From: Halovivax gelatinilyticus
GTDB taxonomy: Archaea; Halobacteriota; Halobacteria; Halobacteriales; Natrialbaceae
Length of the DNA stretch: 64,000 nucleotides
Assembly (NCBI RefSeq): GCF_024300625.1
Contig: NZ_CP101322.1
Location: 1,129,992-1,193,991, forward strand
Direction of reading: 5' to 3'
Below the pieces are notes generated by a model. The model was not told where the DNA came from. It searched no databases and saw only the letters and a program-made list of their open reading frames with translations. The stretch's first letter is position 1; every line of letters begins with the position of its first letter. Positions 20,536-43,283 of this stretch are shown piece after piece. The translations under genes and the position numbers were made by a program.

Positions 20536-23500
20536 ATGTCAGAGGGGCGCCGGATGACGACGGATCGATTCTATGGCGGAGTCGAGGGTCGCTTGGACGT
20601 TCTTGGTGGGTTTCTAACATTTATAGACCAATCCGGATCGGAGCGAAACGACGTCCCGAAAGAAGAGGTCATCGACTGGATTCTCACCAACACAAACGCA
20701 CAGGAGCGAGATGCGGTCTCCCATCACCTGAATTTTATCGATTCAATTGGATTGGTTGAGCGCGAAAATGGTCGATATCGGTGTACAACAATCGGGCGGT
20801 GTTATTACGAAGATCGGAACTCGCTCGTCCTCTACAACGCGCTTAGAACGGGGGTAAAAGGGTTCGATACGATCCTGCGGACGCTATCGAACGAACCGCT
20901 GACTGATGAAGGTCTGATGGACTTGCTCGTGAGCGAGTTCGAAGAGTGTAACATGGGAACGCCTGCGGTCGCTCAACGACATCGAGAATGGTTGCAGGCG
21001 ATTGGGTACGTCGAACAAGCATCAGGCCAAAACCGGCTCACTGAAACTGGTCGGGCAGTTGCAGATCAACTCAGTGGAGTAGGCGGAATTGATTTTGAGA
21101 TCGGTGCGACCTACGACCGGCAGACACTCCACGCAACATACGGCGGTAGCATTCAGGGCGGGATTGCACCATCAAATGATGAGCCAGTCGTCTTCCTGTT
21201 TACAGGCGAAATCGGCGAATCACACGGCTATCAAGACGAAATTCGTGATGACGGGACAATAATCTACACGGGCGAAGGTCAGGTCGGCGATATGGAGATG
21301 GAACGGGGGAATCGAGTGATTCGAGATCACGTCGAGGAGGGAAGGGAACTGCATTTCTTTTCGATGGAAGAAGATGGTGTTCGGTACGTCGGGCAATACC
21401 TCTACGCCGGTCACTTCATCGAGGAACTCCCGGATGCGCAAGGGAACCAGCGAGACGCGATACGGTTCAAACTCGTGCCGATCGAAGAAACGAACGGCGA
21501 ACCGATCGACCCCACTGTCTACCAGGTTCCCGTGAAAACCGGCGACGGTCCGATCCGAACCAACTTCGACCGAACGATCGTCGACGGTGTCGACCGAGAT
21601 CTGATCGAAACCGTCTACGAGCCCCCGATCAACCACGACACGCTTCGCGTCTGGGGGAACCAATCAACCGAACCAGCCGAAGAAGGTGATTACCTACTGT
21701 TCGCCGATCGCGACGGACGACACGGCGGCGAGTACACGCTTCTGGCCCGCGTCTCTCACGCGACGGTTCTGGATGATGAGACGGCCGCAGCGTTCACGGA
21801 CGCCGTCGGCTGGGGCGAAGTCACCGACAGGATCTTCCCGCACGTCATGTTCTTAGACCCGGTGTACGAGGCCGACTGCGATCGCTCATCCGTTTGGGAC
21901 ACGCTCGGGTACGGTGGGTGGCCGAACGATACCTATAGCGCGATCAACTTCGACCGACGTGACGGGTCATTCGACGAAGAGTACGACTCGATCCGGGGGT
22001 TCGTCGAGGAGATCCAGGGACGAAAAGTGTATCCAGAACCATCCATGCCAGTGTACGACTCGCTCGCGGCGGCCTGTAACGATGTACGAACGAAGCGACC
22101 GAAGACGCGATCACAGGCGGACGACTTGATTGCCCAAATTGGCGAGGCAGTCATCGAGGACTGGTCCCGAGCGCTCGATGGGTTCCGGCCGTCGGACGAC
22201 GTCTCACCAGCGAGAGCGGCGACGTTCGATCAGGTTCGGTCGGTCTACGAGTCCATGGAAGCCGACCTCGAGACCAGGGCTGGCGACCTCGGAACGGGGA
22301 CGCTCCATCCCTTCACGCCCGCACAGACGCTGTTCCTCGCAATCGTTCGCAACGCACAGGATGAAGTCGGTGTCCCTGGTGGACCGCTCAACCAGCCCAG
22401 ACTCAACAGCATCTTCAACGATACGTACTCCCTCGACGAACCGGACGAACCAGAATCCGCGTCGGAGGCAGCTCACCCCGTTCTCGAGTATCTCAGAGAC
22501 GACCGACCGGCCGTCTACAAGTTCACCGCACCGCCCGATTACTGGCTCCCGTCCGTCGAGTACGGCTCAGTCTCCTTCGAAGATAGACACCAAAAGCGAT
22601 GGGATGAGATCGAACAGGGTGACCTCGCACTACTTTACTCCCGTGCAGAGCCGTCGACTGACGAGTTCGACGATCAGCAAGCCGGGCTGATCGGCGTTGG
22701 GATACTCGGCGAGAAATACGAGAAAGACGATCCGTGGTGGTGGGACGAATACGAAGATGACAAGGAATTCTCGATGATCGTGAGTTTCGATCGACTATTT
22801 CTTACCGGCGAGATCAGCGCCATCGACACCAGCCTCGGTATCGACGAAAAGGACCGTTCGACGATTAACCGTGAACTCCGTGCGCTCACTGCAAACTGTT
22901 TGCTGACCGACGAGGCGAACACGATCTGTTTGGAGACTTCCCAGACGGCGTTCCCGGCTCAGGGGATGTTCGCTAGGTTCCGCACCGACGACGGCGAGAT
23001 CGATTACGACCGACCGCGCGCTCTGATCAAGGCCATGGCCGCAGATCTCGACGAAGTCCCTACGGTTAACGTTCACAAGCCCTTCGAAGGCGCCCTCACT
23101 GATCACGAAGACGAGATCCTCAAAGGACTCCATTTTCCTGGGGAACAGGGTCGGGAAATCCTCGAGAGCGTCGAAACATCACTCAACGCGGGTAAGCACG
23201 TGCTCCTCACCGGTCCGCCCGGCACCGGCAAGACGGAGATTGCCGAGCGCGTCTGCGATCATCTGATCGAGCACCACCCCTACCTCTTCTCGGACTTCGA
23301 GATGACGACTGCCACGGCCGACTGGTCGACGTTCGACACCGTGGGCGGTTACATGCCGACGGAAGACGACGAGACAGAGAGCGATCTCTCGTTCACGCCG
23401 GGGATCGTGCTCAACCGTCTCAAAAACAACCGAACGGGTGTCCAATCGAACGAGCTTACCATCATCGACGAGCTCAACCGGGCGGACATCGACAAGGCAT

Positions 23501-24123
23501 TCGGTCAGCTCTTCACCCTACTTTCCGGCCAGTCCGTCCAGCTTCCCTATACCGTCGAGGGAGAGGAAGTAGAGCTGGCGACCTACGAGGACGTCGACAC
23601 GCTTGCCGATCCCCACCAGTACATCGTTCCCAATTCCTGGCGCATCTTCGCGACGATGAACGCCTACGACAAGACGTCGCTCTACGAGATGAGTTACGCG
23701 TTCATGCGCCGGTTCGCGTTCGTTCGGGTACCGGCGCCCGAACTCGAAGAGCCAACGTCACAAGAAGACCCTGCCGCCGATCTCGTTCACGAGTACGCCA
23801 GGGCGTGGGAGCTCGATGTCGGCCCGACGAGAGCGGCCGCTGTCGGTCGCGTGTGGCGCCAAACCAACTCGGCAGTCGAGGAGCGAGCTATCGGGCCAGC
23901 GATTATCGAGGACGTTCTCCAATACGTCTCACAACACCCCGACGACGAGATCGAACGCCACCTCACTCAAGCGGTGGTTAGCTACATCTTCCCGCAATTG
24001 GAGGGAGTCCCGAAGCGAAAGACGATCGTGGGACAGCTCGCCAGTGTGCCGGATCTTGACCGGTCGTTGCTCGAAGCCGCCGCTCGAGAGATGCTCCAGG
24101 TGACGCTCGCCGAAAATGAATAA
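20536..24123 (+). CDS. McrB-like AAA+ restriction NTPase fused to SRA-like and EVE-like reader domains
   Basis: The motor/recognition subunit of a modification-dependent (type IV, McrBC-like) restriction system, 1,195 residues. Residues about 10-180 hold two winged helices. About 185-310 form an SRA-like domain of the ScoMcrA type (GGSIQGGI, GYQDEI, YTGEGQVGDM, GNRVIRDH). About 670-800 is an EVE/PUA-like domain (YKFTAPPDYWLPSV, WDEIEQGDLALLY, GLIGVGILG). About 880-1195 is the AAA+ core with Walker A GPPGTGKTEIAE, Walker B IIDELNRAD and the sensor-like ATMNAYDK, the McrB signature. It overlaps the McrC-like gene by 8 bases. Lower GC than its neighbours suggests transfer. Confidence 0.85.
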   Translation: MSEGRRMTTDRFYGGVEGRLDVLGGFLTFIDQSGSERNDVPKEEVIDWILTNTNAQERDAVSHHLNFIDSIGLVERENGRYRCTTIGRCYYEDRNSLVLYNALRTGVKGFDTILRTLSNEPLTDEGLMDLLVSEFEECNMGTPAVAQRHREWLQAIGYVEQASGQNRLTETGRAVADQLSGVGGIDFEIGATYDRQTLHATYGGSIQGGIAPSNDEPVVFLFTGEIGESHGYQDEIRDDGTIIYTGEGQVGDMEMERGNRVIRDHVEEGRELHFFSMEEDGVRYVGQYLYAGHFIEELPDAQGNQRDAIRFKLVPIEETNGEPIDPTVYQVPVKTGDGPIRTNFDRTIVDGVDRDLIETVYEPPINHDTLRVWGNQSTEPAEEGDYLLFADRDGRHGGEYTLLARVSHATVLDDETAAAFTDAVGWGEVTDRIFPHVMFLDPVYEADCDRSSVWDTLGYGGWPNDTYSAINFDRRDGSFDEEYDSIRGFVEEIQGRKVYPEPSMPVYDSLAAACNDVRTKRPKTRSQADDLIAQIGEAVIEDWSRALDGFRPSDDVSPARAATFDQVRSVYESMEADLETRAGDLGTGTLHPFTPAQTLFLAIVRNAQDEVGVPGGPLNQPRLNSIFNDTYSLDEPDEPESASEAAHPVLEYLRDDRPAVYKFTAPPDYWLPSVEYGSVSFEDRHQKRWDEIEQGDLALLYSRAEPSTDEFDDQQAGLIGVGILGEKYEKDDPWWWDEYEDDKEFSMIVSFDRLFLTGEISAIDTSLGIDEKDRSTINRELRALTANCLLTDEANTICLETSQTAFPAQGMFARFRTDDGEIDYDRPRALIKAMAADLDEVPTVNVHKPFEGALTDHEDEILKGLHFPGEQGREILESVETSLNAGKHVLLTGPPGTGKTEIAERVCDHLIEHHPYLFSDFEMTTATADWSTFDTVGGYMPTEDDETESDLSFTPGIVLNRLKNNRTGVQSNELTIIDELNRADIDKAFGQLFTLLSGQSVQLPYTVEGEEVELATYEDVDTLADPHQYIVPNSWRIFATMNAYDKTSLYEMSYAFMRRFAFVRVPAPELEEPTSQEDPAADLVHEYARAWELDVGPTRAAAVGRVWRQTNSAVEERAIGPAIIEDVLQYVSQHPDDEIERHLTQAVVSYIFPQLEGVPKRKTIVGQLASVPDLDRSLLEAAAREMLQVTLAENE

Positions 24124-25495
24124 GGAACAACTTCTCGAACAGCTCACAGAGGACATCCTCGCGTACGTGATGCGGGGGACGTTCCCAGAGCGCGAGTTCG
24201 CTCGCTCGATCAAACCCGAGCAGTTGGACGAGCGCTTCGAGGAGTACGAACTGCTCCTCGACCTCCACTTCATCCTCCAGGACGACGTCATCGAGTTTAT
24301 CAGAGACCTCCCCGAGCACCTACGGAGCATCCGGACGGAGACGAGAACCATTTCGCGTACCCGGCGTGGAACCGTCGACGGGCGGATCAACTGGGGCGCC
24401 ACCGTGAAGAAACGCTACGCCGAACATCCCCGGGATTCGTCGATCTTCGTCTGTGACAACCGCTCCGAAAACTACGACATTCCCGAGAACCTCGTCCTCA
24501 AGAAGATCATCGCCGTCGTCCACCGCACTGTTCGAGAGGCGGAAGAGTACCTCGTCGAGGGGTACGACTGGGTTAGCGAGACGTGGCGCGGGAACGAAGA
24601 CCTGATCGACGAGCTGCAACGGATCGTCGAGCGAAACGTCCACGTCCGCCGGATCCGCGAACCAGACGCGTACGAGCCCACCGAACGAATGCTGACGACG
24701 GCCGCGGACTCGCGCCACGAGGTCTACCGAGATGCGGCGAAACTCGTCCGGTCCCGAAATCGATTGTTCGACGGCGAGGAAGAGGCGATACACGACCTAC
24801 TCGAAGAGACCGCTATCGCGCCGGACGACGAGAATACGCTCTTCGAGTTGTTCGTTCTGTTCCGCTTCGTCGCCACGCTAGAGGAGCTACGAGAGACGCA
24901 ACCGACGTTTCAAACGATCGCGACCGACCGCCAGGAGATCGCGAGATTCGAGGGCGAGAAGGAACTCGTCCTCTATCACGACAACTCCGCAAAGGATCAG
25001 GAGCTGTCGTTCGTCGCCGTTCCAGATGAGGACGGGGAGAATCACTCCCGCTCCGACAAGGTCCAGCTCGTCGCGCAGGAAATCGCGGGACAGTATTTCG
25101 ATACGGACTATCGGAATCACACGGGGAGACCGGACGTCATCGTTCTCGAAATCATCTCGGACGGGAACGCCCCGAACGAGTACCTGATTACGGAGGTGAA
25201 AAACAGCACCAACGAAGATACGATCCGGCGAGGAATCAAAGAGACGCTCGAGTATCTGGCGTTCCTCCGCGTCAACGAAGAGTACGTCTTCGGGACTGCA
25301 GACCCCGTGGACGACGAGGAGTACTTCGGATCGGGATGGAACGGACTGCTCGTCGTTCAAGATATCGACGACGAAACGGCATCGCTAGACGAACAGAAAG
25401 ACAACGAGATCGCTATTCTCCAGGCTTCAGAGCTGGAGCGTGACCTACAGACGATACTGAAACGCGTTCTCGAAGAGGATACTTCCGAGGAGTAA
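24116..25495 (+). CDS. McrC-like PD-(D/E)XK nuclease subunit
   Basis: Partner nuclease of the McrB-like protein. The N-terminal 300 residues are helical and presumably contact the AAA+ ring. The nuclease core follows at about 320-420: HTGRPDVIVLEI supplies the Asp, and EYLITEVKNSTN the E-x-K. Its start lies inside the end of the McrB-like gene (8-base overlap), implying coupled translation. The length of 459 is within the range of McrC-type proteins. Predicted to cut DNA after the reader domains find modified bases and the AAA+ motor translocates. Confidence 0.82.
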   Translation: MNKEQLLEQLTEDILAYVMRGTFPEREFARSIKPEQLDERFEEYELLLDLHFILQDDVIEFIRDLPEHLRSIRTETRTISRTRRGTVDGRINWGATVKKRYAEHPRDSSIFVCDNRSENYDIPENLVLKKIIAVVHRTVREAEEYLVEGYDWVSETWRGNEDLIDELQRIVERNVHVRRIREPDAYEPTERMLTTAADSRHEVYRDAAKLVRSRNRLFDGEEEAIHDLLEETAIAPDDENTLFELFVLFRFVATLEELRETQPTFQTIATDRQEIARFEGEKELVLYHDNSAKDQELSFVAVPDEDGENHSRSDKVQLVAQEIAGQYFDTDYRNHTGRPDVIVLEIISDGNAPNEYLITEVKNSTNEDTIRRGIKETLEYLAFLRVNEEYVFGTADPVDDEEYFGSGWNGLLVVQDIDDETASLDEQKDNEIAILQASELERDLQTILKRVLEEDTSEE

Positions 25496-25569
25496 CGAAC
25501 GCGGCGTTGGGCGAAACTGTAGTTATCGTCAGATCAAGTCCTCGAAAATCCTTCGCTCAACGACTTCCC

Positions 25570-26586
25570 TTATTCTGCGAACTCGAGGATGGTATCATCG
25601 TACGTGTAGCACTTGATTCCGTTTTCCGCACAATGATCCTCTAATTTGCTCGGCCAGACATCCTCGTCCTCGAAACCGTTGAGAAACGCGACCGACACGT
25701 CGCCGGACTCGGTTCCGTTTTCGCACGTGACTACCACAGCCGTATTCGGATCGTCGTGTCGAGTGTTGACCACCCGATCGCCAGGGACGTACGGATTCTC
25801 AGCGAACGCGAGATTCTCGTGCTTGTAGGTCCAGAGCTTGATGTCTGTATCGTGGCAGTAGGATGCGAGTATCGCAGGGTGATACTCACGCCAGTTCCCC
25901 GGTCCGCGATCGAGCGCGCTCGGAAACGCAACTCTGACAGCCTCCCCGTCCATTTCTTGCCCAAATGCCCCAGTATTCTTCTCCGGCGGCATCACCTCGA
26001 CGACGACTCCAACCGACGGATCTTCGTCTCCGGCTTTCACCACCCGGTCGCCGGGACTGAACGGGTTTTCCGGCTTCTGATTCATGTGGGCGGTGTTCGG
26101 ACCGAGATCGATCAGCTCGTTCATCGCTCTCGCAGCGAGGTGGTCTAGCTTCTCTGGCGCTTCGCCGGAGAATTCGGCTTCGGTCTCGACCTTCGATTCG
26201 AGCGTCTCGACGCGCTCCCACCCGAGGAGGATGAGCCCGTCCTCGTTGTCCCGGTGCCAGACCATGACGATGATGTCGTCGTCCGAGTCTCGTTCGACGA
26301 GCACCTCTGGCAGAAACGCCGAGACGTCCCGAGAGGTCTTCACATCGATCGTGTAACCGAACACCTCGAAGTCGTGTCCCGCGTAGCTCTCCGGGTTACA
26401 CCGTCGGATCGCCTCCTCGTTCTTCCACTCCCACATCTCGACGGGCAGGTACTCGCGGCAGAACTCGTGGAACGCAAGTTCGCCGAGGTTTCCGATGCGT
26501 TTGACGTCTAGATCGTCCGCACCCTGGATAACCGCTTGGTGGTGGGCGCGTTCGCGGTCGATCTCGTCGGGCGTGTATTTGTACAT
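25570..26586 (-). CDS. PD-(D/E)XK-like protein with two SH3-like repeats
   Basis: Residues about 25-110 show the layout of a restriction-endonuclease fold: GNLGELAFHEF (Glu), HDFEVFGYTIDVKTS (Asp, then D-x-K). The C-terminal half holds two about 75-residue repeats, each NPF/Y-PGDRVV-----DP---VVV...VAF...Y-YD/KH--L-FAE, resembling small SH3-like barrels. It converges on the McrBC-like operon with 74 bp between stop codons. A role as an accessory defence nuclease is inference. I do not recognise the full architecture. Confidence 0.72.
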   Translation of the reverse strand: MYKYTPDEIDRERAHHQAVIQGADDLDVKRIGNLGELAFHEFCREYLPVEMWEWKNEEAIRRCNPESYAGHDFEVFGYTIDVKTSRDVSAFLPEVLVERDSDDDIIVMVWHRDNEDGLILLGWERVETLESKVETEAEFSGEAPEKLDHLAARAMNELIDLGPNTAHMNQKPENPFSPGDRVVKAGDEDPSVGVVVEVMPPEKNTGAFGQEMDGEAVRVAFPSALDRGPGNWREYHPAILASYCHDTDIKLWTYKHENLAFAENPYVPGDRVVNTRHDDPNTAVVVTCENGTESGDVSVAFLNGFEDEDVWPSKLEDHCAENGIKCYTYDDTILEFAE

Positions 26587-26866
26587 CAGTAGAATATCAT
26601 ATTGATCCGAAATGAATCTTCGTATCTATCCGGGATATCTACATCAATACCGACAGTCGAGATTGGACTAAGTGAGCGAATCGGTGGCGGGTTGACTGCG
26701 AACCCATTGCTCACACTTCCAAAATTGTGTCGAACCAAATCCCAATCCAGTAGAGAAGATCGAGCAACACAGTCTAATGTTCTTAACCCAGAAACGACCC
26801 ACAACTAACATTCCTAAAACTATCCTAATTTCCAGTAGATATAATATGCTGCAGTGCCACAATTCA
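26587..26866. other. AT-rich intergenic region with divergent promoters
   Basis: No supported gene. Composition is clearly AT-richer than the chromosome average. At 26838-26848 GATATAATATG is a TATA box for the plus-strand leader RNA that follows; a minus-strand promoter for the PD-(D/E)XK gene must lie in the left part. Confidence 0.45.
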
Positions 26867-26966
26867 CGTGGAAGCCACTCGCTCTGGCTCACCGGAGTGG
26901 GCAGAAATGCCCCGGGTGCTGAAGACACCCGAGACGTGGCTTCCGAAACCCGTCGGAGGGTTTTCA
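26867..26966 (+). ncRNA. candidate structured leader RNA, copy 1
   Basis: The transcript should start near 26868, about 25 bases after the TATA box. Predicted helices: P1 GGAAGCCAC (26870-26878) with GTGGCTTCC (26936-26944), 9 perfect pairs; inside it P2 CTCTGG/CCGGAG (26882-26897, one G-U), P3 GGGCA-GAAA-TGCCC (26899-26912) and P4 CGGGTG/CACCCG (26913-26931). A further hairpin P5 (GAAACCC/GGGTTTTC, 26945-26965) ends 7 bases before the ATG at 26973. The closed multi-helix junction followed by a hairpin at the start codon resembles a riboswitch or protein-binding leader. A homologue lies at 42766-42866. Confidence 0.6.
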
Positions 26967-26972
26967 TCAGCC

Positions 26973-27320
26973 ATGACACGCTATACACCAGACCACCATA
27001 AACCCCGCGCACAGCCCGCGTATCCTCGATTCACGGTGACTACCAAGTTTCTCGATTCGAGACGGTCTACCCACATCCCAGCCACCTACACCGCACCCAC
27101 CGGCCCAACCGAGGACCGCCTCTTCGTCACCGTAGACCGCCCGACGGACCCGTACCGGTACGGCATCGTCTCCAGAGACCGCTACCCACCGTGTCCGAGT
27201 TGCACCGAACCCGTCATCACGATCAGGACGCTGGGACCACATCGACACACCGCCGATCCCTGCGGCTGCGCGTTAGACGCCCATACGGTCGCCCACTTTC
27301 TGCGAGGGCCCCGAAGATGA
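26973..27320 (+). CDS. small Cys/His-cluster protein downstream of leader RNA
   Basis: Starts MTRYTPDHHKPRAQPA at the ATG following hairpin P5; longer upstream starts would run through the structured leader. The 115-residue protein is Pro/Arg/Thr-rich. It ends with a putative zinc site CPSCTEPV (C-x2-C) followed by PHRHTADPCGC. It shares this C-terminal motif with the 51-residue protein encoded next, which begins inside its stop codon (ATGA). Function unknown; nucleic-acid or zinc binding is a guess from composition. Confidence 0.6.
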   Translation: MTRYTPDHHKPRAQPAYPRFTVTTKFLDSRRSTHIPATYTAPTGPTEDRLFVTVDRPTDPYRYGIVSRDRYPPCPSCTEPVITIRTLGPHRHTADPCGCALDAHTVAHFLRGPRR

Positions 27321-27472
27321 CCGAACCGGACCTAGAGAACTGCCCGTTCCCGTTGTGTCCGTTCTGTGAGACGCCGGTCGTCAGTATCACCTCCACGGGG
27401 CCACACTCTCACTCCGCCAGTCCCTGTGGCTGCGGACTCACACTCACCGACGTCCAGGAGATGCAAGGGTAG
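27317..27472 (+). CDS. 51-residue zinc-finger-like microprotein
   Basis: ATG overlaps the preceding stop (ATGA). Cysteines in CPFPLCPFC and PCGC plus PHSHS histidines suggest a single zinc site: C-x2-C then H-x-H-x4-PCGC. The last 30 codons and 20 bases beyond recur as a diverged copy at 29076-29180. Haloarchaea encode many such one-domain zinc microproteins. No function is known to me. Confidence 0.62.
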   Translation: MTEPDLENCPFPLCPFCETPVVSITSTGPHSHSASPCGCGLTLTDVQEMQG

Positions 27473-27495
27473 ACCAACCGCCAGAGCGAGACACC
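27389..27495 (+). repeat. long direct repeat flanking MNT/HEPN copy B, left copy
   Basis: About 105 bp covering the 3' end of the 51-residue gene and its downstream sequence (ATGCAAGGGTAGACCAACCG included) match 29076-29180 with scattered substitutions. The pair encloses the second nucleotidyltransferase/HEPN module. The rest of 27473-27753 holds no supported gene. Confidence 0.72.
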
Positions 27496-27753
27496 GCACC
27501 AGGTGTGTCTCCGAAATACGCACAGAACCGATCCGAACAGCTCGGCCTGCCGACGACACTGAATCGATCCGATCGACCCCCGAGTCGCCCACCGACCGGC
27601 CGGCCCGATCGCCGTCGTGCGAGCGAGGCTGCGTCCCGGCAGCCAGCGCTCGAGAGCTCACTATCGCAGTGTCCTGTACCACCAGCGGTTCGAATTGCAG
27701 ACCTGGTGCCGGTGAACGGAATACTTAATGTGTTATGAACCCCAAGACGATTC

Positions 27754-28443
27754 ATGAACACCGATACCGTTCAATCAACGGGCGAATGCGAGGGGACCCA
27801 TATCTGTCTCCCGATCCCGCTCGGTGACCGTGACGCGTTCCGGTACCGCGCGACGACTGACATCCTCCACGTACTCGCGGATAACCCCGACGCGACCTTC
27901 TCGAACCGCGAGCTTCACAGGCTGACCGGAAACGGGCTGTCGAACGTGAACGCCGCCGTCCTCTCGCTCGAAGCGCTCGGCGTCATTCGTGTAGACCGCG
28001 ACGGTCGGGCAAATTCCGTGCGGATCAACCCGGCGAAACTCGTTCGGAGCGACGATCCAGTTACCACGATCTCACAATCCGAGTACCACGAGCCGGTTCG
28101 GGCCGCGTTGAACCGGCTCGTAGATCGCGTCGGTGATGACGCAGCAATTGTGTTGTTCGGGAGTGTCGCTCGCGGCGACGCCGACCGAGCGAGCGATATC
28201 GACGTATTCGTCGTCGTCGATGATGGTCGAATGGCGGCCCAGCGAGCGGCTCACGGCATCGAAGAGGAAATCGCGTCGGAATCGTTCGACGGAGATCGGT
28301 TCGAACCGCACATCGTTGTCGAGACGCGCGACTCGGCGGTGACGCACGACCGAATCCGCGACGTGCTCGTAGAGGGGATTACGCTGCACGACGCCCCGGT
28401 CCTCGACGCGGTGAAAGAGGAGGTGGTCACGGATGGGGCTTGA
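27754..28443 (+). CDS. winged-helix plus MNT nucleotidyltransferase antitoxin (copy B)
   Basis: Same architecture as the protein at 19014-19670: wHTH (about 30-90, FSNRELHRLTGNGLSNVNAAVLSLEALGV) and MNT domain (about 110-225) with FGSVARGDADRASDIDVFVVV. Both start with a L-LP-P-----FRY motif. The metal-site Asp pair is intact. It overlaps the HEPN gene by 11 bases. TACTTAATGTG around 27722-27732 is a likely promoter. Role: antitoxin that modifies and neutralises the HEPN partner and probably represses the operon. Confidence 0.85.
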   Translation: MNTDTVQSTGECEGTHICLPIPLGDRDAFRYRATTDILHVLADNPDATFSNRELHRLTGNGLSNVNAAVLSLEALGVIRVDRDGRANSVRINPAKLVRSDDPVTTISQSEYHEPVRAALNRLVDRVGDDAAIVLFGSVARGDADRASDIDVFVVVDDGRMAAQRAAHGIEEEIASESFDGDRFEPHIVVETRDSAVTHDRIRDVLVEGITLHDAPVLDAVKEEVVTDGA

Positions 28444-28951
28444 AGACGTCGTCGACGCGGTCGAGTGCGTCGAGTCGTTGTTAGCAGACGGGGAGACAGG
28501 CCCGGTCCAGGATTCGCTCTCGTGGCAGGAAACGGATGCTGATGTGCAGCTAGGAAAAGCGTGTGCGATGCTAGGGACGTGCCGGCAGTTACGCAGCGGG
28601 ACGAACAACTACGTCAGTATCGTCGAGTTGTCGTTCAACGCAATCGAACGGTCGTTCCAGTTTTACTTGGTGGAGCAAACGGCGGCTGAGTCGTCTGATT
28701 TCCGAACGCACGAGCAAGTGTTCGAGGACATCGAGCGACGGGGAGTGTTCTCTGATACGGGCGTCCCTGCCCGGATCGACGCGTTCCGATCGGAGCATCG
28801 TGCCCGGATATATTACGATGTGGACCGCCCTGGCCGAGATCTAGCGATTGGAATGTACGAACTAGCCGAGGCAGTTCACTCGTACGTCGTTGCGTTCGCC
28901 AACGCGCACTCTCGATGTAACTGCGAGCAACGACACGAGAACGAGTTCTGA
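28433..28951 (+). CDS. HEPN-domain toxin (copy B)
   Basis: Helical 172-residue paralogue of the protein at 18535-19017, aligned through YVSIVELSFNAIERSFQFY and HRARIYYD. The canonical R-x4-6-H is again R-x3-YY, so if it is an RNase its active site differs from textbook HEPN toxins. It starts 11 bases before the end of the MNT gene. The tyrosines next to the conserved Arg are candidates for AMPylation by the partner, by analogy with HepT/MntA. Confidence 0.8.
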   Translation: MGLEDVVDAVECVESLLADGETGPVQDSLSWQETDADVQLGKACAMLGTCRQLRSGTNNYVSIVELSFNAIERSFQFYLVEQTAAESSDFRTHEQVFEDIERRGVFSDTGVPARIDAFRSEHRARIYYDVDRPGRDLAIGMYELAEAVHSYVVAFANAHSRCNCEQRHENEF

Positions 28952-29075
28952 CGATACGACGCGGCGTGCGAGAGTACTCGATCCGTGAGTCTATCACGCT
29001 CCCGTCGAACGAAAGGTGGCGCCATTGTCGGTGGATATTCCTGACCCATACCCGTCACCGGTGGTAAGGCGGTTC

Positions 29076-29180
29076 ACTTCCACGGGGCCACACTTGCACT
29101 CGGCGAGTCCCTGTGGCTGTGGCCTGACGCTCGCCGACGTTCAGGAGATGCAAGGGTAGACCAACCGCCAGAGAGACACC
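29076..29180 (+). pseudogene. truncated duplicate of the 51-residue zinc microprotein gene (right repeat copy)
   Basis: Encodes only the tail TSTGPHLHSASPCGCGLTL-DVQEMQG before a stop, with no start codon or first Cys pair. It matches 27389-27495. It probably arose by duplication or insertion of the intervening module. The region 28952-29261 has no other supported gene. Confidence 0.65.
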
Positions 29181-29261
29181 GACGTATGACGAGTGTGCTC
29201 ACCGAAAGACACAGAACGAGCGACGTGATCGATTCGTTCGACACGTACTACCCCGGAACAC

Positions 29262-29540
29262 TCAATCGTCACCGAGGTTGTACGCGCCACCACGACGCTC
29301 GATGGAGTAGATGTCGAGAACGTTTTCGGTATGATTACAGTCAGCCCCGAGTCGGAACTGGCCGATTCGGAGATTCGAGTGTGGGACACCAGTCAACGAT
29401 TCGAGGTACTCGTCCGGATCGCGCCACTGATCCGTGACGATCTCGTCGAGTTTGTCGGTGATCCGACGTTTGGCGTGATCGTCGAGCCCGTCGTCGGTGC
29501 GCTTGGCGGGCGCGCGAAACTGCCACGTCCACGTCCTCAC
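29262..29540 (-). CDS. RelE/ParE-family toxin
   Basis: The 92-residue protein matches haloarchaeal RelE-like toxins: N-terminal WTWQFRAPAKRTDDGLDDHAKRRI, then DEYLESLTGVPHSNLRIGQFRLG, and C-terminal basic strand YSIERRGGAYN. It would cut mRNA on the ribosome. The GTG start at 29540 overlaps the stop of the original antitoxin frame (GTGA). The toxin itself looks complete although its antitoxin gene is frameshifted. Confidence 0.78.
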   Translation of the reverse strand: MRTWTWQFRAPAKRTDDGLDDHAKRRITDKLDEIVTDQWRDPDEYLESLTGVPHSNLRIGQFRLGADCNHTENVLDIYSIERRGGAYNLGDD

Positions 29541-29807
29541 TCGTCGCTACCGAGGATCTCCGCTCGGGAGAACGTCTCGCTGTCACCGGTTCGCCTGGCG
29601 TGTTCGACGGCGGCGATCTCTCCAGCTCTCGCGGTTCAATTCCGGATGCCGAACGGCGTCTCGGAGCGACTCGCGGATGAACTCGCTGCGGCTATTGTAT
29701 CCTTCATCTCGCCAGGTTGCGTCGATATCTTCGAGAAACGTCTCGGTAAGCCGGATGTTGATGTTGGTCTTCTCGGGCTCAGTGTTGTTTGTATCGGTAC
29801 TCGACAT
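29537..29807 (-). pseudogene. ribbon-helix-helix antitoxin with frameshift
   Basis: The RHH domain (TNINIRLTETFLEDIDATW...NSRSEFIRESLRDAV) reads normally to about codon 60. In that frame translation then gives RDRRRRTRQANR and stops. Shifting frame near 29618-29624 restores EIAAVEHARRTGDSE then TFSRAEILGSDE and a stop that overlaps the toxin start, exactly what such antitoxins look like. So a 1- or 2-base indel removed the toxin-binding tail. The truncated 74-residue RHH protein (29583-29807) could still bind DNA. Confidence 0.68.
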
Positions 29808-29881
29808 ACGGACGTATTACACGGTCGGTGGGATAAGTGTCGATGGTAGGTCCGGCCCCGGCTTCGAGCGTCGTCGTATCG

Positions 29882-31273
29882 CTACGATTGCAGCGCCGAA
29901 ACGACGTCGTCGACGGTGAACAGCCGGAGGTCGTCGCGTTCCGTGGCGGCTTCCGCCACGGACGGTTTGAATCCGCTACGGGAGAACAGCGCGTATCGTT
30001 CGTCTCGCGTGGCACCCGAGTCGGGCGTCCATCGCAGTTCGTCGGCGTGGCGCTGTAAATTCGAAAACGCGTCGTAGCCGAGCGGCGATCGCTGGAACTT
30101 GCACTCGCCGACGAGCAGCGTCTCCTCGGTCGTCAACCCGACGACGTCGATCTCGTGCTCGCCGTACCACCATCGTCCGGCGTCCGTGATCGTGTACTCC
30201 GGATAGAGCGTTCGAAGCGCGGACCGACACAGTTCCTCGAACGATTGACTGACGAAGTCGGCCAGCTCGGGTTCGACGAGCGCCTCGTACGCGTCGTCGC
30301 CGAGTTCGTCGTACCGATCTCCCGTCCCGTAGACGAAGTGGAACCAGAAGCGAAAGAACGGGTCGCGGATGTGGTACCGACTTCGCTTGCTTCGTTCAAT
30401 TTTCTCCGTAACCGGGACGCGCCGGTCGATCAGTCGCAGTCGACCGAGTCGGTTCAGATACTTCGAGAGTTGATTGTATTCGATACCCGTCGTCCCCGCA
30501 ATCTCGTTGCGACTCGTACTCCCGCCCGCGATCGCTTCGAGAATCGAGAAGTATCGCGTCGGTTCCGTCAGCTCCATTCGCAGCACGTAGTCGGGTTCGT
30601 CGTGGAGCGAGCCGTGTCTGGAGAGGATCGTTCGCTGGACGGTTGCCGCCAGCGGCGCTTCCGGATCGACCGTTTCGAGGTAGTAGGGTGCACCGCCGAA
30701 GATACCCCACGCACACACCTGTTCGTCCGCCGTGTACGCGCCGTCGAAGAATTCCATCGCGGCGGCGAACGGGAGCTGCCTCACGTCGAGTTTCACCCTG
30801 GATCGGCCGTAGAGCGGGCTATTCCCGAGCAGGGCGGCTTCCTCCATCATGCTGATCGACGAGCCGACGAGCACGATTGTCGTCGCCGACTCGTCGAGTT
30901 CGTGGTCGAACATCGCCTGGAGTGTCGACGGGAGGCTTCGGTCCTGTTCGACGAGGTAGGGAAACTCGTCGAGGACCACTATCGCGTCCTGTTCGGCAAG
31001 ATACCCGAGCACGGCTTCCCAGTCCGCTCGAATTTGCATCACGCCCGGGTGGGACTCTGCGGCAATCTCGACGAACTGCTCTAGTTGTAGCGCGCTCGTT
31101 TTCTGTTTCGCCTGGTAGACGACGGCGTCGTCGTACCCCTCGAGCGATTGCTTGACGAGTTCGGTCTTACCGAGACGCCGCCGACCGTAGATCACCGCGA
31201 GTTCCGCCGCGTCCGATTCGTAGAGCGTACGGAGCCGGGAGAGCTCCGCTTCGCGATTGACGAACTCGACCAT
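29882..31273 (-). CDS. archaeal STAND-like ATPase with C-terminal DUF234 nuclease-like domain
   Basis: Residues about 1-220 are the archaeal ATPase domain: EFVNREAEL start, Walker A YGRRRLGKTELV, Walker B AIVVLDEFPYLV, and the LVGSSISMMEEA sensor-like segment. A winged helix follows (about 255-330). The C-terminal DUF234 part (about 335-463) has RDPFFRFWFHFVY and a PD-(D/E)XK-like HEIDVVGLTTEETLLVGECKF. Such proteins are common in archaeal islands; role in defence, element maintenance or toxin control is unresolved. An ATG two codons upstream (31279) is possible. Confidence 0.85.
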   Translation of the reverse strand: MVEFVNREAELSRLRTLYESDAAELAVIYGRRRLGKTELVKQSLEGYDDAVVYQAKQKTSALQLEQFVEIAAESHPGVMQIRADWEAVLGYLAEQDAIVVLDEFPYLVEQDRSLPSTLQAMFDHELDESATTIVLVGSSISMMEEAALLGNSPLYGRSRVKLDVRQLPFAAAMEFFDGAYTADEQVCAWGIFGGAPYYLETVDPEAPLAATVQRTILSRHGSLHDEPDYVLRMELTEPTRYFSILEAIAGGSTSRNEIAGTTGIEYNQLSKYLNRLGRLRLIDRRVPVTEKIERSKRSRYHIRDPFFRFWFHFVYGTGDRYDELGDDAYEALVEPELADFVSQSFEELCRSALRTLYPEYTITDAGRWWYGEHEIDVVGLTTEETLLVGECKFQRSPLGYDAFSNLQRHADELRWTPDSGATRDERYALFSRSGFKPSVAEAATERDDLRLFTVDDVVSALQS

Positions 31274-31315
31274 GCACACCGTAGCGCCGCTCGGAAGATA
31301 ATCCTTCTGTTTATC

Positions 31316-42599: not shown

Positions 42600-42765
42600 G
42601 AGAGACGGTCAATCTTTCGCCGGCCGGCGTTCGATCGCTTGCGTACACGCCGGACTAGGCGTTCTCAACGGTTCTGATCAGTACGCGGGTCTCGAAGGGG
42701 ACCCCGATACCGCCACGTGTAACAGCGATCGGTAGATACATAATAATTGACTCATAACGGTTGAA

Positions 42766-42866
42766 CGGAAGCGGCGCTCCATCGTTCGCGCGGGGACATG
42801 CGCAGAAAATGTCCCGGGTGGGTCCAGCACCCGAGACGTGGCTTCCGAAAACCATGAGGGGTTTTC
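42766..42866 (+). ncRNA. candidate structured leader RNA, copy 2
   Basis: Homologue of the leader at 26867-26966. A TATA-like GATACATAATAATT (42735-42748) lies about 25 bases upstream. P1 is CGGAAGC (42766-42772) with GCTTCCG (42841-42847). P2 is GCGC/GCGC (42774-42791), weaker than in copy 1. P3 is GGGACAT/ATGTCCC (42793-42815) around GCGCAGAAA. P4 is GGGTG/CACCC (42816-42832). P5 is GAAAACC/GGTTTTC (42847-42866), 7 bases before the ATG at 42874. Shared unpaired or invariant segments are GCAGAAA and GAGACGTGGCTTCCGAAA. P3 sequences differ between copies but pair in both. Confidence 0.6.
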
Positions 42867-42873
42867 AGTCACC

Positions 42874-42993
42874 ATGGTACGCTACAAACCTTCGAGACAA
42901 AAAGGTCTCGCACGACTGCGGTATCGACAGCGAACGCTACGTCCGGTCGAAATCGTATTTTCCAAACCGGCACGGGCGGAGGATCGTCGATGA
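42874..42993 (+). CDS. 39-residue basic microprotein downstream of leader RNA
   Basis: MVRYKPSRQKGLARLRYR followed by an Arg-rich tail ending AEDRR. It starts right after hairpin P5 of the leader, like MTRYTP at 26973, and its stop overlaps the next ATG (ATGA). It could be a leader peptide or a small nucleic-acid binding protein. Too short to judge by composition; the conserved context is the main support. Confidence 0.5.
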   Translation: MVRYKPSRQKGLARLRYRQRTLRPVEIVFSKPARAEDRR

Positions 42994-43283
42994 CCGACAA
43001 CCCGTTCTGTTACCGGTGTAACGACTCGCTCGACGGTTGCCACTGGATTCGCCTCACGACGGAGCACCGCGGCGCGGTCGCCGACAACTACCGCGACGTC
43101 GAGCGGTTCGTCTGTCCCGACTGCCTGGCCGCGATCGGGTTGCTCGAGATCGAACGGTCGGCCGATCCGGCCCGAACGACCGAAGCGCCGACGGACGTCC
43201 CCGGACAACCGGGCGTTCGATCCAAACCGGAGACGCCAACCCGACGGACGCCGTCTGAACGATCACCAGGGACGCGACGCTGA
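42990..43283 (+). CDS. zinc-ribbon-like small protein
   Basis: The first 55 residues hold two Cys pairs, FCYRCNDSLDGCHW (C-x2-C and a further Cys) and RFVCPDCLAA (C-x2-C), a likely treble-clef or zinc-ribbon site. The last 40 residues are a Pro/Thr/Arg-rich disordered tail. It is the second gene of the leader-RNA micro-operon and the positional counterpart of the 51-residue protein at 27317. Function unknown. Confidence 0.65.
   Translation: MTDNPFCYRCNDSLDGCHWIRLTTEHRGAVADNYRDVERFVCPDCLAAIGLLEIERSADPARTTEAPTDVPGQPGVRSKPETPTRRTPSERSPGTRR

Follow-up and report, generated by a model that had tools for sequence, protein, structure and literature searches.

Among translational ON riboswitches, the add adenine type uses P1 as its switching helix. 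The NiCo (czcD) riboswitch is a four-way junction for metals. In archaea, the fluoride riboswitch of Thermococcus kodakarensis was described in 2021 as the only experimentally determined natural riboswitch (PMC8241225). The S15 ribosomal leader of Halobacteria is found ahead of rpsO operons, with S15 as its presumed reader (PMC7247131). The leader described here, from Halovivax gelatinilyticus, resembles each of these in part. As in the add type, P1 closes an aptamer-like core, the P1 3' strand has a second possible partner at the translation start and an open start goes with P1; unlike that type, its core and junction match no Rfam class and its alternative helix covers the AUG, not a Shine-Dalgarno sequence. 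The copy analysed is a four-way junction like NiCo, and metals had been suggested for it in a sequence-only reading of this DNA, but the leader has no Rfam match, is often a three-way junction and does not precede metal exporter genes. Like the fluoride riboswitch, it is an archaeal leader thought to act on translation, although it is not matched in Rfam and precedes other genes. Finally, it shares with the S15 leader (PMC7247131) the standing of a predicted haloarchaeal cis-regulatory leader with covariation, but it lies upstream of zinc microproteins: no ribosomal protein gene was seen downstream, the open reading frames of the examined copies encoding small Cys-pair, SWIM or unknown proteins. 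At the Rfam gathering score the leaders have no match, including to NiCo, fluoride and ydaO, and at E up to 5 six loci gave just chance-level matches, elsewhere or on the wrong strand, which bears out the earlier view that the element lies outside known RNA families. No earlier description was found in a literature search that left out most subscription papers. Structured cis-regulatory leaders are a known kind; this class and its haloarchaeal start-codon switch appear new. On our best reading, it is a haloarchaeal cis-regulatory RNA class that works like a translational ON riboswitch, with no data on ligand binding.

The window, that is, the whole 64,000-nucleotide stretch of DNA that was analysed, contains two copies of the leader, with these features:

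26840-26844, plus strand: TATA box of the leader promoter (from sequence; position kept in 117 copies)
26870-26878 with 26936-26944, plus strand: P1, the closing helix, 9 bp (fold, covariation)
26879-26880 with 26933-26934, plus strand: extension of P1 (fold)
26881-26887 with 26892-26898, plus strand: P2, a hairpin optional across the family (fold)
26899-26903 with 26908-26912, plus strand: P3, a hairpin with a GAAA loop (fold, covariation)
26913-26918 with 26926-26931, plus strand: P4, a hairpin (fold, covariation)
26945-26951 with 26958-26964, plus strand: P5, a separate hairpin whose 3' end lies 8 nt before the ATG at 26973 (fold)
26935-26941 with 26969-26975, plus strand: anti-P1, an alternative helix over the start codon that excludes P1 (complementarity, permutations, folding)
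26973-27320, plus strand: ORF1, 115 aa, with a C-terminal CPSC...CGC zinc-type motif
27317-27472, plus strand: ORF2, a 51-aa CPFC...PCGC zinc-type microprotein whose start overlaps the ORF1 stop (ATGA)
42765-42876, plus strand: second leader copy, start codon at 42874, similar fold (z -2.6)
42874-42993, plus strand: short ORF1 of the second copy, 39 aa, MVRYKPSRQKGLARLRYRQ...
42990-43283, plus strand: ORF2 of the second copy, MTDNPFCYRC...CPDCLAAIGLLEI, with ATGA overlap

Much of this anatomy had been drawn correctly from the letters alone. The perfect 9-bp closing helix is exact to the base, the hairpin described as GAAA-capped is P3, and the second copy said to lie in this stretch was found and folds alike. 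The window leader has a minimum free energy of -54.5 kcal/mol, compared with a shuffled mean of -37.1 (sd 3.7; z -4.7), a value matched by none of 200 dinucleotide shuffles. The closed junction of three hairpins proposed earlier holds for this copy (P2, P3 and P4) but fails as a family rule, P2 being absent or weak in others (L008, L009, L016, L017 and L021). Since P2 is dispensable, the junction is often three-way, and the three-hairpin junction is a variant. The TATA box had also been taken to set the RNA 5' end at the base of the closing helix, and its spacing recurs in 117 homologous leaders: their A/T share is at least 91% at -28 to -24 from the leader 5' end, in a sharp peak. The same copies carry A-rich bases at -10/-9, the position of the WW element of haloarchaeal promoters (PMC4983044). 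Phased TATA peak and A-rich -10/-9 bases together place the RNA start at the base of P1, a very likely inference made without transcript data; the predicted start of the window leader is about 26868. A T-rich conserved stretch, possibly a transcription factor site, lies above the TATA box in the 117 leaders, 47-53 nt upstream of their 5' ends.

A search with the window DNA revealed that the leader is repeated in its own genome. A covariance model (R1) built from 19 copies detected 25 in the 3.70 Mb Halovivax gelatinilyticus genome; five further R1 matches (E 0.007-1) are reverse-strand echoes and stand outside the 25. Two genomes of the same genus have 26 copies each. Other genera of the family carry 1-15 where the leader is present, and matches occur in other families too, one genus of family f4 reaching 23 copies per genome. 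With a second model (R2), 151 of the 392 genomes sampled from the order proved to carry the leader, and these span 56 of 95 genera and 11 families. These counts are lower bounds owing to strict filters, and lone weak model matches near E 1e-3 may be chance. Across 197 genomes sampled over the phylum, 12 had leader matches, none of them outside this order. Named records place the leader in Halovivax, Natrinema, Natrialba, Natronorubrum, Halostagnicola and Halopiger, as well as on Haladaptatus megaplasmids. The sequence-only reading had called for just such a covariance-model search of haloarchaeal genomes and had named a lack of homologues with compensatory changes as its refutation; homologues of this kind turned up in many haloarchaeal families.

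Three loci deserve separate mention. At 1.840-1.858 Mb of the H. gelatinilyticus genome (L029), several ORF1/ORF2-like sequences lie clustered, and a full leader is present for just one of them. In a Haladaptatus copy (L329), ACG stands in place of the start codon, suggesting that some copies decay. At L014, a CRISPR-array-like sequence, with a repeated translated motif, directly follows leader and microprotein.

Many dispersed copies per genome would also fit the view that the supposed leader is in fact a mobile-element RNA, either an IS200/IS605 omega RNA or a MITE. The omega RNA identity, suggested by copy number and end hairpins, was excluded: the single TnpB domain of the genome, at 1.72 Mb, adjoins none of the 25 copies. 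Every copy comes with a phased promoter of its own, and its start codon lies at a constant position. A viral origin was likewise rejected, two core patterns searched in viral contigs giving no exact match. A mobile-element origin is therefore barely credible.

The conserved core is supported by covariation, which is strong both in Natrialbaceae and in other families. Because the alignments were fitted to the model and matches were selected for P1, P3 and P4, pairing is partly by construction, a share that shuffled and slid controls serve to bound. Among 99 distinct sequences, standard pairs fill 97.3% of pair cells, compared with 90.1% after shuffling and 32-57% in slid registers, and 98 cells show double changes against 16.7 when shuffled. 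The signal is stronger in 77 distinct sequences from outside Natrialbaceae, which are 95.1% paired (76.3% shuffled) and have 223 double changes (58 shuffled) with a covariation score of 0.486 (0.154 shuffled). Of 221 scored copies, 219 retain GAA or AAA in the P3 loop region and 220 have a P4 loop of 6-7 nt. One riboswitch criterion, a conserved, covarying, aptamer-like core in a 5' leader, is met.

The other element of a switch is a second helix. In the window, the 3' strand of P1 is complementary to the bases that lead into the AUG, with AGCCAUG (26969-26975) facing CGUGGCU (26935-26941) over 7 pairs. As this strand is shared by both partners, P1 and the start-covering helix are mutually exclusive. 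In other families, where P1 has changed, the bases before the AUG have changed along with it: GGUUUCC with GAAACC in L127, GGUCUUCC with GAAGACC in L043, GGAUUCC with GAAUCC in L157 and UGGCCUUC with AAGGCCA in L302. Anti-P1 pairs formed part of neither covariance model. The observed anti-P1 duplex energy is -9.66, a level reached by 0 of 500 permutations, compared with -8.32 for permuted pairings, and the longest Watson-Crick match between pre-AUG bases and the P1 3' strand is 5.37 nt versus 4.33 permuted (sd 0.05). The idea that the pre-AUG bases are a direct repeat of the P1 5' strand was rejected: in 239 distinct leaders, the 3'-strand match is longer than the 5'-strand identity in 119 and shorter in 9. 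Part of this asymmetry may reflect drift of the 5' strand with the other two strands conserved. Permutations within families guard against that artefact, and the observed match was reached in 0 of 1000 for f1 and in 1 of 1000 each for f4, f17 and f5. In the informative copies (L157, L302, L304 and L073/L097), it is the P1 3' strand, rather than its 5' partner, that the bases before the AUG follow.

Not all of the evidence on anti-P1 points the same way. In a fixed-register alignment (A2) this helix is 75.4% paired versus 31-56% in slid registers, but there its covariation score (0.060) does not exceed those of slides -3 and -2 (0.107 and 0.081) and its pairs with a double change (3 versus 2.2 shuffled) are not in excess. 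Several Natrialbaceae copies have just 4-5 complementary bases, and L298, L347 and L299 show a poor match between pre-AUG bases and P1 strand. The criterion of an expression platform exclusive with the core is met by computation, with a mixed fixed-register count.

Folding predictions bear on what the two helices do to the start codon. Averaged over copies, the last 8 nt, comprising the AUG region, are unpaired at 0.76 with P1 and at 0.28 without the P1 5' strand; shuffling the -8 to -1 bases in the absence of that strand gives 0.61. For the window copy the two states are 0.975 with P1 and 0.143 without its 5' strand. The hairpin that had been placed at the start codon exists as P5, but on its own P5 leaves the AUG free, and it is anti-P1 that can cover the start; a role for P5 as direct blocker was accordingly rejected, the AUG remaining unpaired in the window copy upon folding. 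The leader could instead be a passive 5' structure, protecting or insulating the mRNA, with a pre-AUG complementarity that has no switching role. P1 is indeed the stabler helix, with a mean of -15.6 versus -10.3 kcal/mol for anti-P1, but within each of four families the bases before the AUG vary in step with the P1 3' strand, which such a structure does not predict, and shuffling these bases frees the AUG of the truncated leader; this account is unlikely.

With 40 nt of coding sequence included, the two folds of the window copy lie 3.1 kcal/mol apart; this and the other folding energies rest on standard 37 C parameters that do not represent molar KCl. Haloarchaea keep molar salt inside their cells. 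So small a gap and such an interior would suit a physical sensor, in which temperature or intracellular salt sets the P1/anti-P1 balance without any ligand. A bare two-helix thermometer, however, has no need of a P3/P4 core conserved in all but one or two of 221 copies, and this possibility is, if anything, slightly fainter than that of a passive structure. In many copies (L010, L013, L051, L145 and others) an extra hairpin lies about 20-40 nt past the start codon, inside ORF1. It surrounds an AAA Lys codon (GRGA...UCYC), and its Arg/Leu and Gly/Pro codons co-change as pairing requires.

The downstream genes are linked to the leader well beyond this locus. ORF1, which begins at the switched AUG, is short in most copies (median 45 aa), and a zinc-type ORF2 often starts in the ORF1 stop (ATGA). 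In the window, ORF1 is longer, its N-terminus is related to the short ORF1 of other copies, and CPxC...GP...PCGC occurs in both ORF1 and ORF2; neither is assigned a family by Pfam or NCBIfam. Of 230 downstream regions, 169 (73%) have at least two Cys-pair motifs in ORF1 or ORF2, compared with 4.4% of random starts treated alike, so the placement of the leader before a zinc-microprotein operon, read at first from one locus, extends to the family; 61 of the 230 lack two such motifs by this simple test. Product types differ among copies (CYRC, CPxCG...CGC and SWIM), and in Haladaptatus the product carries the annotation SWIM zinc finger protein. Zinc binding by these products is inferred from motifs alone.

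The neighbourhood of the first copy (20536-31279) looks like an island of defence and toxin-antitoxin genes. It includes an AAA protein matching PADLOC PDC-S27, a McrB-like AAA_5 protein that weakly matches SAD/SRA, together with a partner gene, an MNT-type nucleotidyltransferase followed by a HEPN-like gene, and two small paired genes on the minus strand; the partner, HEPN-like and gene-pair labels were given by inspection. At 29016-29159 the ORF2 zinc-microprotein gene occurs a second time, with 88% identity over 106 nt but no leader.

What reads the leader is less certain. Small zinc proteins often bind nucleic acid. The same two-state leader could therefore be read by a protein, either the zinc microprotein itself in autoregulation or a shared RNA-binding protein, given that the downstream products are small Cys-pair proteins and that ORF1 is short and Lys/Arg-rich in many copies. 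Ribosomal-protein leaders of like logic have been proposed in archaea (PMC7247131). However, cores are alike and products differ widely, which makes it unlikely that each product reads its own leader, while a common protein is not excluded; reading by a protein stays a real possibility, if a rather doubtful one. By the same reasoning, a single signal probably serves all copies, whether ion, metabolite or common protein, since one core stands before about 25 genes per genome whose products are unlike. That this is a natural haloarchaeal riboswitch class, possibly sensing a metal ion or cofactor and gating the start codons of 20-25 zinc microprotein genes per genome, is offered tentatively, with doubt slightly outweighing belief.

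Whichever signal is involved, we consider it quite likely that this is a cis-acting leader of about 110 nt with two exclusive folds that control access to the start codon, although no transcript, probing or expression data exist. The RNA would begin at the base of P1 and run for about 110 nt. In one fold, P1 would close the P3 and P4 core (with P2 where present) and leave the AUG unpaired beyond P5. In the alternative fold, the P1 3' strand would leave its 5' partner, enclose P5 and hide the start by pairing with the bases that run up to the AUG and often include it. A signal read by the core may stabilise P1 and open translation of ORF1, and the ORF2 zinc microprotein may then be translated too via the ATGA overlap. 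The family, its structure, promoter phasing, second helix and gene linkage are established by computation; switching in the cell, its ON sense, translational coupling and the action of a shared signal are inferred. The riboswitch or autoregulatory-leader logic first read from this sequence is thus supported, and its function is still inference.

RNA switches are thought not to be typical of haloarchaea, and a covarying, promoter-phased leader with up to 25 uses per genome would be a large exception. It would give zinc microproteins, which mostly lack a known role, a common control, and archaeal start-codon control would become testable in a group of organisms with genetics.
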